NCBI GenBank assembly: GCA_031841125.1
Contig: CM063113.1
Coordinates: 57,157,211-57,221,210, forward strand
DNA: 64,000 bases
Origin: Acanthococcus lagerstroemiae
Lineage: Eukaryota; Arthropoda; Insecta; Hemiptera; Eriococcidae
Reading direction: 5' to 3'
Shown here one piece after another: positions 17,724 through 61,214 of the stretch. The position numbers and the translations under genes were made by a program. Every line of letters starts with the position of its first letter. The stretch's first letter is position 1. The notes beneath the pieces were generated by a model. The model was not told the origin of the DNA. It saw only the letters and a list, made by a program, of their open reading frames with translations, and searched no databases.

Positions 17724-17926
17724 CACTTTCTAATTTTGTTCTCAACCTGAGCCGTGGAGTTCACCCTTCCGAGCATTACCTCAGAGACGTCGGGGAGGCT
17801 GCTAGGGTTGTCTTAGTCCTTTTCTCTTCTTGCCGAAAAACCGGCCTAGGCTGAAATTTAGCGATTTGCTACCGTGGGCTCGATTCCGAGACCAGCGCGC
17901 TATTCACTCGGCCAACCAGACCACTA
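17724..17926 (-). mobile_element. tRNA-derived SINE-A, copy 2, with 13-bp TSD
   Basis: This is the reverse complement of the SINE-A head (B box GGCTCGATTCCGAG near 17878, A box GGCCGAGTGAATAG near 17912 when read on the minus strand) with the same body and TTGAGAACAAAATTAGAAA tail. It is flanked by CTTACGTAGGAGT at 17711-17723 and again at 17927-17939, a perfect 13-bp TSD. This proves retroposition of a complete unit of about 203 bp. Confidence 0.93.
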
Positions 17927-18111
17927 CTTACGTAGGAGTACGAGGGAGATTAATAAATTAATGAGTAGCTACGTAATCATGAGTGCAAATAGCTAACATT
18001 GAGGGGTATGACCTCACAGGGGGTTGATCGGTAGCAGAATTATGATAAAAATTCCTTCAGTTGTAAATTTTTCAGTTTTTTTAATGTAGGAAAATTAGAA
18101 AGATATAAAAA

Positions 18112-18573
18112 AAAAAAAGTGCAAAGTGTGCGGGCAAAGGTCTAATTGCTGAAAGTGGCGTAGAATGGTGTCCGAACCAACATACTAAAAATCCCACAAA
18201 ACACCCCGGTGCTTTTTTTTTTTTTTTTCTTTCTTTAATGAGGGTTTAGACTCACCAAAAAACAGTTTTTCGCAAATATCTCGCTGAGTATGCACTTTTA
18301 TAGAAAAACACATCAGTCAAGAATTGTTCCTCGGAAAATTTCCTATCGAATCATGTATTCAACACTTAGCCTAGACCTCATGGTCAGCCTACAAAGTTGT
18401 CCGAGATGGGCCTATTTTGCAACAAAAAAAACCTGTTTCTCACAAATAGCCTGCTCAATTCGCATTTTCAGGCAAAAATGCATCAGACAAGAATTATTCC
18501 TCATAAAATTTCCTATCGAATGATTTATTCAGCATTTAGTCTAGACCTCATACTCAGCCTACAAAGTCATCAA
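18112..18573 (+). repeat. Left TIR of the nuclease/CXC element
   Basis: This arm is the inverted counterpart of 20609-21085. It holds two tandem modules (about 18280-18415 and 18440-18573), each with TTTCCTATCGAATSATKTAT followed by a CTAGACCTCATRSTCAGCCT-type block. Each module ends in GCCTACAAAG. The arm runs straight into the pseudogene. Confidence 0.88.
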
Positions 18574-20429
18574 AAGTACGCCTGCTCCAAGAAAATGAGC
18601 GTATTACGGACAGTATCACCCGCTTTAACCGCGACTCACACGACATTCAGAAATTGTATGTGTGGTTGCAGGATCGCAATCCATTCTCCTCTGTGCCTCA
18701 TTTAGTGTCCCTGTCGACTGGCATTACAGGCAATGAAAATATCGACTATTATGAAGCTTTCAATGTCGGCAGAGACATAGAGACATGATGGAAAAATGTA
18801 TCGGTCAAAATTTCGCCAAGATTATTTTTAAACGTTCAGAGACCGTCAAAACATTGGCTAGTATGTCATCCAAGGTGAAGATTCGGGAAGATAAAAGTTT
18901 TGACGGACCTCGTACTCCTATTCCAACGAATTTCGTTGCTCAAGGAGAACAACGACCAACTTCGAGAGTACTTCAGTTATGAGTTGTCACCATTCCCTTC
19001 ATCCCTCTTTTATGTAGTCGGTATGAAGAAAACGGCAAAATCATCGCTGTACTCTTTCTTCACTACCACTGAAACTAGAGGAGACGTCAGCGATGACGTA
19101 TACTATGTCATAGATGGTGGATTTGTGCTACATAAAGTCATTTGGTCCAAAGACGTTACATATGGATCCATACGTGAAGACTGAAGGGACAAATGTGACG
19201 GTCATTTTTGACGGCTATGGAGAGAATGTGAACAACACCAAAGTTTGCAAACGCAAGAGAGGAAGTTTGAAGACCTGGGGAATGGATGTACAGTGTACAG
19301 AAATGGCAACAATCACACAGAAACAGTCATTATTTTTGTTAAGAAACAAAAATAAAGGAAGTTTGATCCGCATTCTTACACAGAAGTTCATTGAACATAA
19401 GTATTCTGTGGGCGCAGCAGAGTCCGATGCCGATACTTTGATTGTTGTGACCGCAATAGATAAAGCAAAGAACAGTCCGACCATTGTCGTTGGAGAGAAT
19501 ATAGATCTGTTGCTATTATTAGTCTCACTAACACCGACAACGGCGGAGATCTATTTCTTGAAACCAGCAATCGGCAAACAGCCAGAGAAATTATATACAA
19601 TAAGTGATGTGCAGAATATCGCAAATGTCCGGGATAGTGTTCTGATAGCCCACGCAATGACTGGGTCAGACACTACTTCCTGTATTTATCGTCAAAGCAA
19701 GACCAAAGCTTTAAAACTTTTATGTGAGCCGGAATTTGACGACATAAGAAGTACTTTCTTGGACCCTGCATCTACACCAGAAGCTGTCTTTGAAGAAGGT
19801 TGCAAGTACATAGCAGCACGGTACCGTATATCCACCACAAAATTCACGAGGCTGAACGACGTACGATTTCAGTGCTTTGCTAAAAGTGTCCGCAACAAAG
19901 TTAACCTACCTTCCCTTCCGCCCACAGAGGACGCAGCTAGGTATCACATCTATCGTGCCTACCACCAAGTACAAATGTGGCTTCAAAATCACAAAGGTCC
20001 CACCAACTGGGGGTGGAAAAAAATGAAGGAATGCTGGAGCCAGTTATTATGAGTCAACTTTGAGCTCCAGCTACTGTTCTACAGCTTATTTTTTGTGGCT
20101 GTAAAAAAGGGTGTAAAAATGCCTGCACCTGTCGGAAAGTGGGTAAGAAGCGGTACCCAGACAGTAGTATTTAAGTACCCACTAGTCTTTGAATAATAAT
20201 AATTTGTGAAATACTTCCATTTTTGGTTTTGTGTTTAGACCAAAAGTGTTTGACATTGTGCATGTCTTGTTTGGGACCAAGTTGCCTGAACGCTCGTTCC
20301 ATAGTTATATCGGAAGAACATGAAGAAGATGTAGACGATGCTTTAGAGGTGCGAGAGCAGAGCGACAATGAAGACGAGGACGTGGCCATGTGGTCAATAA
20401 CACATGATGAAGACGACGAGGACGATTAA
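18574..20429 (+). pseudogene. Decayed XPG/FEN-like nuclease with C-terminal CXC cluster
   Basis: The longest intact piece (19114-20052, 312 codons) shows, in order, IFDGYG (residues 31-36), ESDADTLI (103-110), VVGENIDLL (125-133), MTGSDTT (172-178), SLPPTEDAAR (257-266) and a WGW motif near 300. The order VFDG, acidic E/D block, GEDIDLL, TG.DT fits the FEN/XPG nuclease fold. It also matches a multicopy invertebrate family usually annotated as uncharacterised. Upstream pieces continue the family: 18588-18782 (LYVWLQDRNPF) and 18900-19150 (LLFQRISLL, YELSPFPSSLF). Downstream, beyond a frameshift near 20020 and a TGA at 20061, lies CGCKKGCKNACTCRK, then an intron, then CMSCLGPSC and an acidic tail to the TAA at 20427. 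At least four frame changes and one stop make it dead. The second acidic residue of the canonical GEDIDLL is Asn here. Confidence 0.87.
20143..20238 (+). other. Inferred 96-bp GT-AG intron splitting the CXC cluster
   Basis: The donor GTGG|GTAAGA and the acceptor TTTTGTGTTTAG|AC (AG at 20237-20238, after a T-rich stretch) join CTCRKV to a DQKCLTLC-type continuation in the same frame. This restores the expected CXC spacing. Without splicing the frame runs off. The join is inferred from sequence only. Confidence 0.75.
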
Positions 20430-20608
20430 AACCTATTATTATTATAATACTGCTATAATTAATGTAATTGTCCAATGAAATTGTGTGTATATAATTATGA
20501 TATTATATATAGAAAGTTCCTACCGCCTTCCCTTGATTCATTTCACTTGAAAAGGTTTTAGATAATCATACCTACATGTAGCATTTGAATATTAGTGCAA
20601 AAATTTGG

Positions 20609-21085
20609 ACTTTCACGACATTGTAGGCTAAGTATGAGGTCCAGGCTAAATGTTGAATAAATCATTCGATAGGAAATTTTACGCGGAATAATTCTTATCT
20701 GATGTATTTTTGTCTGAAAATGCGAATTGAGCAGGTTATTTGTGAGAAACAGTTTTTTTTTTTTGTTTTTTTTTTGTTTTTTTTTTGCAAAATAGGCCCA
20801 TTTTGGACCACTTTGTAGGTTAACTATGAGGTCTAGGCTAGGTGATGAATACATGATTCGATAGGAAATTTTTCGAGGAACAATTCTTAACTAATGTGTT
20901 TTTCCATAAAATGCATGCTCAGCAAAATGTTTGCGAAAACTGTTTTATGGGAGGGGGTGTCAAACCCCCATAAAAAGCACCGGAGGGGATTTTGTGGGAT
21001 TTTAGTATGTTGTTTCGGACACCATTCCATGCCACTTTCAGCAATCAGACCTTTGCTCTCACGCTTTGCACTTTTTTTTCCTTAT
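20609..21085 (-). repeat. Right TIR of the nuclease/CXC element
   Basis: This arm is the inverted copy of 18112-18573. It contains the same two modules (each with an ATTCGATAGGAAATTT block), an extended T-run near 20753-20786, and an extra CCCCCATAAAAAGCACCGG segment near 20965. Similarity fades outside AGCGTGCAAAG-type sequence around 21055-21085. No convincing TSD was found at either edge. Confidence 0.87.
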
Positions 21086-21159
21086 TTGCCTCCACTATTT
21101 GGGAGTTGGGGGACTTTTAGAAGATTTGGGGGTAAGCCCCCATTTGGGCCTGTGCATAC

Positions 21160-21294: not shown

Positions 21295-22050
21295 TCAATT
21301 CAATTCCTAATATCGACCTTTCCATGGAGTTTTGAGTTACTGCTAGTTCCTTTTCTTCTTTTCTTGTTAGGGTCAAGTCTGTGATCCGTAAGTGAGAGTG
21401 AGTAAAATACAGTCATTAAGTTCTTGCTCTTCTGAAGCAGTTTGTAAGATCCGTTCATAATATGCTTTAGACTCCACAATTTTTTCCATCCCATTGCCTT
21501 TCTTCTTTTTATTTCTTTTTGAGATTGTTCTTTTAATTATATAATTGGTCCTAAGTAGTTATATTCATGAACTTGTCTATTACGATTTTGGATGCGGAGT
21601 TTTCCTATTGCTAAGGATTTTTGTTTTAATCATGTTTATTTTTAATTCTCCGTATTTTAGACTTGAGCTATACCATTTTTTTAGCATTAGCTCGAGCTCT
21701 TCCCTGCGTTTGGATATTAGTGCTACATCATCTTCGAATCTTAGATTGCTCAAGTATTCCCCATCAATTAGTGTCCCTTTGTCTTCCCGTTCTGATTTCC
21801 TGAGTATTTCTTTCAGAGCAAGATTAAATTGTATCATAGGTGATGATGAATCTCCTTACTTGATTCTTTTCTTCACCTTAAGATATTCTCTTATTTTGTC
21901 GCGTATCATCCTTGCCTCTAGATTATGACACATGTTCTGAATTAACTGAACTAGAGCAAGTGGGTGTCCTTGGTTTTTCATAGCTTCTATCATGAAGTCA
22001 TGTCATGTTTTAAGGAGTCAAAGGCTTTTTTGGAAGTCTACAAAAGCTGT
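21295..22050 (-). pseudogene. RTE-type LINE reverse transcriptase remnant
   Basis: Read on the minus strand, the order is TAFVDFQK then AFDSLKHD (palm domain A, broken by a frameshift near 22030), MIEAMKNQGHP, and MIQFNLALKEILRKSE. Then comes YLSNLRFEDDVALIS (domain C; the usual FADD is FEDD here) and KINMIKTKILSN (domain D). Further frames give MGWKKLWSLKHIM and a tail ending near 21298. These blocks match RTE-clade reverse transcriptases. Several frameshifts and stops show a dead, 5'-truncated copy without endonuclease. Its strand is opposite to that of the RTE fragment at 16735-16915. Confidence 0.85.
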
Positions 22051-27475: not shown

Positions 27476-27479
27476 CATA

Positions 27480-28595
27480 TGTTACGCTTAATTTGCGCAA
27501 TTGACGAATGCGCGCAGTAAGCAAACATTTTGCCGAAAGCGCGCATTCTGCACCCATTCTGCTGGCAGCGCGCAATCTGCATCACGATTGCTGAATGCGC
27601 GCAATCAACTGATAGTAATTGTTTTTTGAGATGGATTCGGCAATAATTTTCTGCCGAATGCATGCATTTAGCAAGCAACAATAAACAAATAAATGAACCA
27701 GATGGGTTTCTGTTGAAACCTGTAGAATATGGAAAAAATTATCATGATTAAGCCGTAGACTTGCTGCATGTAATTTAAAGAAACAGGCAGAGAGAATGAT
27801 TACACGCGGAAAGGGCATGCTTCCAGCTTTAAAAGTGGGAGACAATGCTCTACTTAGGATTCCGGAAGTTGACCAGGGCCACGCTGGCCCAAAGAACCTA
27901 GTAGTAGTTATATTGAATACAGAACATAGTAAATTTCTTGTAGGCACAAAATATGGCCGCTTAGATCGTCACTTAGAACGGAACACTCTGGACGCAACGA
28001 CATGTAAAGCATTGGCCATCTCTGACGCGCCAAACAGTTCATATTCTCTTCGAGAATTAGTGCAATCGGATTCTATGGGTACAGGACAAGGATATCGCTG
28101 TTGTAACTGTCGCCAGAATTTTTCTTCAAAAAGATGCGCATGTTTAAGAGCAGGCCTGGAATGTAACTCAGCTTGTCACCCAAGCAGAGGGTGCAACAAT
28201 GTAGAGAATCTCAGAAGCCCAAAATCAACCACTCAGAATTCATAATTATTATGTTCATAATTTAAATGTGGAGTTATATTTCTGAACTTTTAGCTGTACT
28301 CACTCAAGTTTTATAATTAGACAAAATATAGGGCATGAATTGGGCAAAATTTCTGCTTACTGCACGCACTTGACGACTGCACAAATTGAGGGTAACAGTG
28401 TTTATGTTCAGTTGCTGAATGCGCGCAATGTATTTAGATGTGTTGCCTATTCCACGCATTCGGCAATTTTTTGCACAAATTCAGCAATCTTGGTGCAGAT
28501 TGCACGCAGCCGGCAGAGTGGGTGCAGAGTGCGTGCTTTCAGCAGAATGTTTGCTTACTGCGCGCATTCGTCGATTGCGCGATTTGAGCGTAACA
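27480..28595 (+). mobile_element. Ginger-like DNA transposon, 1116 bp, CATA TSD
   Basis: The left end reads TGTTACGCTTAATTTGCGCA and the reverse complement of the right end reads TGTTACGCTCAAATCGCGCA. The TIRs extend about 120 bp, sharing GACGAATGCGCGCAGTAAGC and CTGCACCCAYTCTGC. The flanks are CATA at 27476-27479 and 28596-28599, a perfect 4-bp TSD. TGT...ACA ends and a 4-bp TSD fit the Ginger superfamily, DNA transposons with a retrovirus-like integrase. The element is internally deleted: only the C-terminal end of the protein is left (27736-28245). Confidence 0.85.
27736..28245 (+). pseudogene. C-terminal fragment of KRBA2-like integrase protein with CXC cluster
   Basis: The open frame 27796-28245 (149 codons) contains LKVGDNALLRIPEVDQG near residues 15-31, then PKNLVVVILN, then KFLVGTKYGRLDRHLERNTL. 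It ends with YRCCNCRQNFSSKRCACLRA followed by GLECNSACHPSRGCNN, a Cys-rich CXC (tesmin-type) cluster. This order matches the C-terminal end of the invertebrate KRAB-A domain-containing protein 2-like family, thought to derive from Ginger-type integrases. Homology seems to continue upstream through a frameshift (LAACNLKKQAERM). The integrase core is missing. The frame is open, so it could be translated, but the truncated context argues for a non-autonomous remnant. Confidence 0.78.
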
Positions 28596-28599
28596 CATA

Positions 28600-39275: not shown

Positions 39276-39747
39276 GAGTCGCTGTGTGGCCGAGTGGTTA
39301 ACCGGTCCGCTTCGCAATCCTTGCGTCTAGGGTTCGATTCCCACCAACGCCGGAAAGCTGGTGACATTCGAATACCCCCACTATCATCCTAGCGAACACA
39401 GCGACCACAGTATCGATCTAGGTGGGAAGATAACGCGTCCTGTAACCCCGCCAGTTTCGAACGAACAAGGCATTACAATCACAGGGCGAGTTACCACTGA
39501 AAGGATTGGGACTGTCGGGTGCACGTCGTGGCTAGCTTACTCAACGTTGTGAAACACGTGGCTAGTAAGCGAACTGCGGCTGCACACTCTTTGGCATAGA
39601 GACGGAAAACTCTAACGCAACAGACCGAGAGGAAAGCAATGGCAAACTTACTCCGACTAACCCTGCCCAGGAAAGTCGGGCGTCAGAAACCGCGATCGCC
39701 AACATCCGGCGACGGGTACGGCACCTGAATGAATTTGAATGAATGAG
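39276..39747 (+). mobile_element. tRNA-Ser-like SINE (SINE-B), copy 1, with 10-bp TSD
   Basis: The head has A box TGGCCGAGTGG and B box GGTTCGATTCC. The body is about 380 bp (landmarks ACGCCGGAAAGCT, ACAATCACAGGGCG, GTGCACGTCGTGGCTAGCTT, GTACGGCACCTG), ending in a TGAATGAA microsatellite tail. The flanks are GACAGAGATT at 39266-39275 and 39748-39757. The GTGGCCGAGTGGTTAA start resembles serine tRNAs. Related copies lie at 49815-50256, 58586-59046 and, inverted, 60737-61168. Confidence 0.93.
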
Positions 39748-49814: not shown

Positions 49815-50256
49815 TGACCGTCACTATGTGGCCGAGTGGTTAACGGGTCCGCTTCGCAGTGCTTGCGTCTCGGGTTCGATTCCCACCAATGCCGGAAAGC
49901 TAGTGATATTCGAATACCCCCACTATCATCCTAGCGAACACAGCGACTACAGTATCAATCCAGGTGGGAAGATAAGTGTCCTGTAACCCCGCCAGTTCGA
50001 ACGAACAAGGCATTACAATCACAGGGCGTGTTACCACCGAAAGGATTGGGACTGCCAGGTGCACGTCGTGGCTAGCTTTACTCGACGTTGTAAAACACGT
50101 GGCTAGTAAGCGAACTGCGGCTGCACAAAACTCTGACGCAACAAACCGTAGGGAAAGCAGCGGCAAACTACCCCAACTAACCTTCTCAGGAAAGTCGCGC
50201 GTCAGAAACCGCGACCGTCAACGTCCGGTATCGGATACGGCACCTGATGATGATGA
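49815..50256 (+). mobile_element. SINE-B, copy 2, with 9-bp TSD
   Basis: Same head (GTGGCCGAGTGGTTAAC, GGGTTCGATTCC) and body as 39276-39747, with a TGATGATGATGA tail. The flanks TGTACACTA (49806-49814) and TGTACACTA (50257-50265) are identical. It lies only 13 bp from the end of the preceding hAT MITE's TSD. Confidence 0.93.
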
Positions 50257-58501: not shown

Positions 58502-59371
58502 CAGAGTTGGGCATTTTTCAATCGACTAATTAATCATGATTGATGATTAGTTCACGCACGTTTTAGTCATGATTAATGACTACTAGGTCGCTGGGTGGCC
58601 GAGTGGTTCGCGGGTCCGCTTCGCAGTCCTTGCGTCTCTGGTTCAATTCCTACCAACGCCGGAAAAGTTAGTGATATTCGAATACCCCACTATCATCCTA
58701 GGGAACACAGCGAATACATTATCAATCGAGATGGAAAGATAACGCGTTCTGTAACCCCACCAGATCGAACGAACCAGACATTACAATCACAGGGCGTATT
58801 GCCATCGGATCTAAAAAACTGGGACTGTCGGGTGCACGTCGTGGCTAGCTTATTCAACATCGTGAAACACGTGGTTAGTAAGCAAACTGCGACTGCACAC
58901 CTCCGGCATAGAGAAGAAAAACTCTAACGCAACAAACCGTGGGGAAAGCAACGACAAACTACTCCGAGTAACCTGCTCAGGAAAGTCGCGCGTCAGAAAT
59001 CGCGACTGCCAACGTCCGGCATTGGATACGACACCTGATGAAGAAGAATGACTATACTAATCACTTCGAATGTGCATACATATGACTATCGACTAAACAG
59101 TTGTCAGTCTTTAGTCATGACTAATTAGTTTACGAGTAATCAGGAATAATTGAAAGTAAATAGCTTAATTACGAAATATGAGAGGGTACGCGGTACAGTA
59201 ATAATGTAGTCATGGCTGAATTAGTCATGTCTAAATTAGTCCTCACGCTAATGTAGCCACGACTAAATTAGTCATAACCTTTAGTCACGACTAATGTAGT
59301 CATTCCAATCATTCCATTTTAGTTGTAATCATACACTTTAGTTGACTACTGGCCAACTGTGCAAAACAACC
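58502..59371. mobile_element. hAT-like element with TTAGTCATGACTAA repeats, interrupted by SINE-B
   Basis: The left end reads CAGAGTTGGGCA and the right end reads TGGCCAACTGTG, a degenerate inverse. The flanks GAAAATAA and CAAAACAA match at 6 of 8 positions. The interior is dense in TTAGTCATGACTAA-type palindromes. SINE-B copy 3 (58586-59046) lies inside. Confidence 0.7.
58586..59046 (+). mobile_element. SINE-B, copy 3, inside the hAT-like element
   Basis: Same family as 39276-39747, starting GGTCGCTGGGTGGCCGAGTG and ending GACACCTGATGAAGAAG. The flanks AATGACTACTA (58575-58585) and AATGACTATACTA (59047-59059) form the TSD, which consists of the host element's own TTAGTCAT-style repeat. Confidence 0.9.
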
Positions 59372-60687: not shown

Positions 60688-60736
60688 GTTCAGTCAATAG
60701 TCATATATGCACATTCGAAGTGATTAAGTAGTCATT

Positions 60737-61168
60737 CTTCTTCATCAGGTGCCGTATCTGATGCCAGACGTTGGTGGTCGCGGTTCCTGACGCGCGACTT
60801 TCCTCAGCAGGTTATTCAGGGTAGTTTGTCGTTGCTTTCCCCACAGATTGTTGTGTCAGAATTCTCCTTCTCTATGCCGGCGGTATGCAGCCGCAGTTCG
60901 CTTACTAGCCACGTGTTTCACGATGTTGAGTTAGCTAGTAGCCACGACGTGCACCCGACAGTCCCAGTCTTTTAGATCCGATGGTAACACGCCCTGTGAT
61001 TGTAATGTTATTTGTTCGATCTGGTGGGGTTAAAGGACGCGTTATTTTTTCACCTCAATTGATAATGTAGTCGCTGTGTTTGCTAGGATGATAGCGGGGG
61101 TTTTCGAATATCACTAACTTTTCCGGCGTTGGTAGGAATCGAACCGGAGACGCAAGGATTGCGAAGCG
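60737..61168 (-). mobile_element. SINE-B, copy 4, truncated head
   Basis: This is the reverse complement of the SINE-B body with the same GAAGAAG tail and the same AATGACTA flank as copy 3. It therefore descends from the same insertion event rather than a new one. The A-box part of the head is missing. Confidence 0.9.
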
Positions 61169-61214
61169 GACCCATTACTCACGTTTTGTACACTAATTAT
61201 TCATGACGCTGCGC

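Follow-up and report, generated by a model that had tools for sequence, protein, structure and literature searches.

What is a nuclease gene doing alone between two long inverted repeats, with an unexplained cysteine-rich tail and no transposase beside it? The question is raised by a locus at about 18-21 kb in a 64,000-nucleotide stretch of the Acanthococcus lagerstroemiae genome (GCA_031841125.1, contig CM063113.1, positions 57,157,211 to 57,221,210, forward strand; the whole stretch is called the window here), which an earlier note had read as a transposon bounded by terminal inverted repeats (TIRs) and carrying a FEN/XPG-like nuclease fused to a tesmin-type cysteine cluster (CXC). We are confident that the locus holds a decayed copy of an AcademX-like DNA transposon of the cut-and-paste type: old, immobile and non-autonomous, it would have been mobilised in trans.

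The inverted arms, reported as about 460 bp long, are real: arm 18105-18574 pairs with 20611-21085 as an inverted copy, with 80.3% identity over 498 columns. The true ends of the element lie just outside those first drawn, at 18082 and 21097, with termini of the form TA(A/G)TG, inverted ends of about 490 bp and TTT on both flanks:

18082..21097, plus strand: whole element, TIR to TIR, 3016 bp; left terminus TAATGTAGG at 18082 and right terminus TAGTGGAGG (minus strand) at 21097, aligned with other copies
18082..18574, plus strand: left TIR, arm 18105-18574 (pairing with 20611-21085) extended to the terminus
20611..21097, minus strand: right TIR, from the pairing of the arms, extended to the terminus
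18079..18081, unstranded: left target-site duplication TTT, inside a T-run and weak alone
21098..21100, unstranded: right target-site duplication TTT, matching the left one

The element belongs to a repeat family. In the genome searched (658 Mb, 438 contigs) the left arm has at least 46 matches including the window itself, the others being 80-93% identical; the arm is present in all 20 loci that were fetched, both arms stand inverted within the fetched stretch in 15 of them, and 15 have a tblastn match to the gene (absent from L013, L015, L018, L019 and L021). Neither of the outcomes that the earlier note had named as damaging, gene copies without arms at single-copy sites or arms unrelated to the gene, was seen. 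In a comparison with 20 other loci, the two ends read TAG-TGTAGGCAAATAAGG (in the window at 21097) and TAA-TGTAGGCAAATTAG (in the window at 18082). The target-site duplication and conserved termini that had been proposed as a check were both found: elements starting TA(G/A)TG have identical 3-bp flanks in 6 of 12 pairs (shuffled mean 1.06), and those of other TIR types starting TAGTC in 7 of 8 (shuffled mean 1.10). The first set comprised the window and the 11 of the 20 fetched window-type loci with both termini, leaving out L015 and L016 (one terminus unreliable) and L019, L022, L023 and L025-L028 (a single terminus found); the second comprised 8 of 9 sister loci (L042, whose ends lie outside the fetched stretch, was excluded), with a one-base shift, made by eye, in the flanks of L033 and L041 that lets the element begin TAGTC. 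On the same copies a 4-bp or 5-bp duplication rule did no better than 3 bp. A 2-bp TA duplication was tried and rejected; it appeared in 10 of 12 pairs at one offset, but its shuffled mean was 8.42, because TA belongs to the terminus itself.

Between the TIRs lies a pseudogene, read in three frames from just inward of the left arm, broken by changes of frame at about 18783, at 18904 and at 19173-19183 and by a stop at 20050, and interrupted by a GT-AG intron:

18585..18904, plus strand: first remnants, in two frames (18585-18782 and 18785-18904), found by tblastn of the relative P0011 from residue 346
18903..19172, plus strand: frame with the FEN motif VIDGG at 19107, matching relatives
19183..20049, plus strand: main FEN/XPG part, stop at 20050-20052, with FDGY at 19201, ESDADTL at 19420, VGENIDL at 19489 and TGSDTTS at 19660
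20064..20142, plus strand: first half of the CXC cysteine cluster, matching relatives
20143..20238, plus strand: 96-bp GT...AG intron within the CXC, splicing putative
20239..20426, plus strand: second half of the CXC and an acidic tail, stop at 20427-20429

The order of motifs of a FEN/XPG-type nuclease, recognised earlier, holds, with IDGG at 19107 as an addition, and all five nuclease motifs can be recognised in the window copy. The gene start had been misplaced: the first 23 codons of the 312-codon open reading frame (ORF) are out of frame with relatives, and the ORF for this reason lacks IDGG. In VGENIDL a conserved acidic D reads N; of the 13 other copies with sequence at this site, L016 and L025 share this N. 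The proposed CXC tail was rightly called; after splicing it reads CGCKKGCKNACTCRKVDQKCLTLCMSCLGPSC, a complete cysteine cluster, and bearing on the intron, the match also breaks at the equivalent residue (about 862 of P0011) in L029 and L040. Pfam assigned no family to three window ORFs, and a PDB search with a window ORF gave no match.

The nature of the protein emerged from its relatives. An initial protein search returned 4, and a second, with the joined pieces and those four, returned 53, whose best-scoring named members are mostly from insects (Cotesia, Vollenhovia, Aquatica, Lasius). A search with residues 1-480 of the relative P0018 gave 782 matches, 120 of which were listed. Among the listed ones, the named proteins of at least 1300 amino acids (aa) are from a mussel, a periwinkle and a stony coral, and shorter named matches belong to a sponge, a sea urchin and a sea spider; no relative was confirmed in viral contigs or GTDB contigs. 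Full-length relatives have about 1480-1530 aa, many on contigs of about 4.8-6.5 kb, and run from a DUF6589-type half through a FEN/EXO1/XPG nuclease to the CXC; the window remnants at 18585-18904 correspond to the stretch between their DDE and nuclease parts. In the 68 listed proteins of at least 1300 aa, with patterns matched anywhere in the protein, the transposase half shows DN(V)DxN in 66, FDQP in 68 and EQ in 67, the nuclease shows IDGG, FDG and DAD in 68 each, GDDTDL in 56 and GCDTT in 63, and the CXC pattern is present in 62; 45 have all nine. The spacing is 154-158 residues from the first D to the second and 250-394 from the second D to E (59 listed proteins), with a nearly invariant GGxH between the second D and E in the alignment of relatives.

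A DDE-transposase fold is predicted in both relatives modelled, and the nuclease part of relatives matches EXO1/FEN1/XPG by motifs and by predicted fold. Of 6 full-length proteins scanned, 4 give sub-threshold matches to Pfam DUF6589, the best at 26.4 bits where 27 are required, and so do 2 of 8 others; it is also a precomputed domain of two listed matches. No nuclease family reached the Pfam cut-off in the six full-length relatives and no helicase family was listed by Pfam for 14 relatives; the divergent P0047 is above the cut-off for Pfam TCR and has a sub-threshold NYN match. Foldseek with the transposase half alone returned nothing at E 0.001. The nuclease is not cargo beside a missing transposase, cargo being one of the two roles considered earlier; in full-length relatives it is the C-terminal half of the transposase polypeptide itself. 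The CXC fusion that had seemed unexplained is real, and is common to the family.

This accounts for the absence of a visible transposase: the window copy lost the N-terminal half of a joint polypeptide. The DDE part, missing here, is present as fragments in the genome. None of 14 gene-bearing loci (L022, cut by the fetched stretch, excluded) extends upstream of P0011 residue 289, so none includes the second presumed catalytic D (residue 75). How short forms originate is illustrated by a sister family, in which L029 is 3872 bp long and L030, L032, L033, L037 and L038 are 2979-2995 bp: the five differ from L029 by a single 874-bp deletion at a common site, and match it at 97.8-98.7% identity along the longer piece and at 94.7-96.9% along the shorter. 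L029 itself is without the part before about residue 503 of the relative P0059.

No element both intact and full-length from TIR to TIR was found in the genome. A near-complete copy on contig C4 covers P0059 residues 390-1519 with stops; it has no inverted repeats in 8.8 kb. The locus L034 (C10:1420657-1424994) retains the N-terminal and DDE parts together with some of the stretch that comes next, and has an open frame of 629 aa. Neither the nuclease nor the CXC gave a match there, and its inverted repeats are short, two pairs of 27-30 bp; it is either debris or a candidate domesticated transposase. We also observed 14 genome hits that begin at P0011 residues 492-507, immediately before the first nuclease motif (for example C8:31866197-31867249, C5:21250960-21251856 and C9:39857886-39858911), 12 of which contain one or more in-frame TAG codons; these are perhaps another amplified nuclease-only derivative.

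Could the truncated nuclease-CXC gene be functional, as a helper or repressor kept by selection on short elements? Shortening has retained the 3′ nuclease-CXC part in several TIR types (the window type, the five short sisters of L029, and L040), and the 14 hits starting at residues 492-507 agree with this as far as their match region tells. However, L041 retains the transposase part instead, and the frame shows no third-position excess: across the window and 14 window-type copies, substitutions at codon positions 1/2/3 number 174/170/167 as singletons and 55/49/61 as shared changes (472/471/473 sites, in a test run without a positive control). Of the 18 loci examined for this test, L013, L015, L026 and L027 were dropped for having fewer than 600 bases of gene, and sites with fewer than 8 rows were skipped. 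L029 and its five sisters likewise have no clear excess (singletons 17/14/18, shared 1/1/4). As the window copy also has multiple frame breaks, a stop codon and an N in place of a conserved acidic D, we think a functional truncated gene very improbable; the frame looks like an unselected passenger.

A second rival would make the nuclease a host gene that an unrelated transposon bearing these TIRs picked up as cargo. This would suit the window copy, where the gene stands alone between the arms and no transposase frame is seen. It is very hard to reconcile with transposase-type motifs on the same polypeptide in most listed full-length relatives, with the transposase fold predicted in both modelled relatives, or with the presence of the gene between inverted repeats in several TIR types, and we hold it to be highly improbable. 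A conserved single-copy gene flanked by inverted repeats by chance has nothing in its favour, and we give it next to no credence in view of the 46 or more arm matches, the gene remnants in 15 of 20 fetched loci and the target-site duplications.

The arms have further structure. The left arm has two modules of about 140 bp, 18257-18397 and 18427-18567, which are 79% alike; the right arm likewise has two, and the pair is visible in the arms of other copies too. Each module carries a subterminal box:

18327..18345, plus strand: box, left, outer copy
18497..18515, plus strand: box, left, inner duplicated copy
20862..20880, minus strand: box, right, outer copy
20670..20688, minus strand: box, right, inner duplicated copy

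Four TIR types have the box in common, as TTCCTCGTAAAATTTCCTA or a variant in which 15 to 19 of the 19 bases agree. At the 8 ends tested, including the one that supplied the query, it begins 218-246 bp inside the terminus; its score was reached 0 to 2 times per 3000 in simulated sequences of equal dinucleotide make-up. With up to 2 mismatches it occurs 929 times genome-wide, against 24 for the reversed pattern, and several listed matches are arranged in facing pairs. It is single in the other TIR types examined and duplicated in the window, the two copies being spaced by 170 bp in the left arm and by 192 bp in the right. The tandem modules, earlier left unexplained, are genuine, and are a duplication, in the window family, of the TIR segment that carries the box. 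Agreement in the box may come partly from common descent of the TIRs, the arms of the window and L041 being 71% alike over 144 columns. LIN54-type CXC proteins bind TTYGAA; as a conserved core of the box this was considered and rejected, being in the L040 box but not in those of the window, L029 and L041. The C4 copy has one box-like site, with 3 mismatches, beyond its end. Two exact boxes face each other about 300 bp apart at C2:4406877 (plus) and C2:4407184 (minus), perhaps a derivative the size of a miniature inverted-repeat transposable element.

We propose that the autonomous parent would encode one protein of about 1500 aa, with an N-terminal part, a DDE domain (a putative P-element/hAT-like RNase H fold with a weak match to Pfam DUF6589), a FEN/EXO1/XPG-type flap nuclease and a CXC cluster. 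Most likely this protein would recognise the termini and presumably the subterminal box; its DDE domain would cut and join with a 3-bp stagger, and its nuclease might trim flaps or hairpins at excision or insertion. An ancestral internal deletion would have removed the transposase half and kept both inverted repeats, and the shortened derivative would then have been mobilised by transposase supplied in trans. A stronger version, that the protein reads a fixed box about 220-250 bp from each end, possibly via the CXC, and that trimming by the flap nuclease is obligatory, we regard as rather doubtful. If true, it would describe a transposase with two nucleases (DDE and FEN) on a single chain, addressed mainly by the box, and the duplicated box of the window family would have aided the spread of a non-autonomous derivative.

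The box makes end-finding by a transposase fused to a flap nuclease a testable question. A large group of animal proteins also gains a home. Their current labels are 'uncharacterized' or 'Tesmin/TSO1-like CXC domain-containing', in one case 'Constitutive coactivator of peroxiso...'. As these have the look of transposon proteins, such gene models can be masked. Pfam DUF6589 becomes linked, weakly and via predicted fold, to DDE transposases. In the open-licence literature we found no paper joining Academ with XPG and none on DUF6589; judged weakly from that literature, three features may be unpublished so far: the fusion to a CXC, the link to DUF6589 and the box.

Other repeats lie elsewhere in the window. 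A second CXC cysteine cluster, CCNCRQNFSSKRCACLRAGLECNSACHPSRGCNN, at 27997-28240 is weakly similar to the family tail (E 0.002) and lies between inverted repeats of 128 bp (27477-27604 and 28471-28598, 86% alike). No box was found at this site, nor was a TAGT terminus seen by eye, and it is probably a mobile element of a different kind that has a CXC tail. Inverted arms of 490 bp, 88% identical, stand at 58612-59098 and 60688-61173, with related copies at 39278-39728 and 49820-50247, and the sole ORF of at least 90 aa in that place is at the left edge. The stretches 17727-17919 and 2727-2932 are inverted copies (77% identical) with a tRNA-like stretch, GGCTCGATTCCGAGACC..., and look like a tRNA-derived short interspersed element; a minus-strand fragment at 21580-21855, reading LRFEDDVALIS..., looks like the reverse transcriptase of a retrotransposon without long terminal repeats.

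How, then, does the element compare with known systems? Academ nucleases are XPG-like, and P and hAT elements make 8-bp target-site duplications, unlike the 3 bp of the window family. Its relatives share the fold (as predicted) and the order of catalytic acidic motifs with FEN1/EXO1/XPG, one D being N in the window copy; their sequence similarity to these enzymes is distant, however, and the nuclease sits after a transposase-type domain and before a CXC. With Tesmin/TSO1 CXC proteins the family shares the cysteine cluster (P0047 passing the Pfam TCR cut-off), but the cluster is single, at the end of a transposase-type protein, and TTYGAA is not conserved in the box. The P element and hAT (Hermes) superfamilies are described in PMC9587614 as sharing C/DxxH, a position at which our relatives have GGxH. 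In Kojima's division, as outlined in part of PMC10045372, AcademH has a helicase and 9- or 10-bp duplications, and AcademX a nuclease and 3- or 4-bp duplications. The window family differs from the former in its 3-bp duplications, its nuclease fold and the lack of any helicase family in the 14 relatives; with the latter it shares TIRs, a 3-bp duplication and an XPG-like nuclease encoded with the transposase (by predicted fold and motifs in relatives, by the five motifs in the window), although the window copy, at 3.0 kb, is without the transposase half. The mean of 5565 bp for curated Academ elements in bivalves, given in a section of PMC10294476, is compatible with the length of the relatives and their contigs. 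The view of the locus as a TIR-bounded transposon with a FEN/XPG-type nuclease is upheld by the repeat family, the duplications and the relatives, and Academ was a home of the right kind: nuclease and 3-bp duplications together fit AcademX, of which the element is very probably a derivative.
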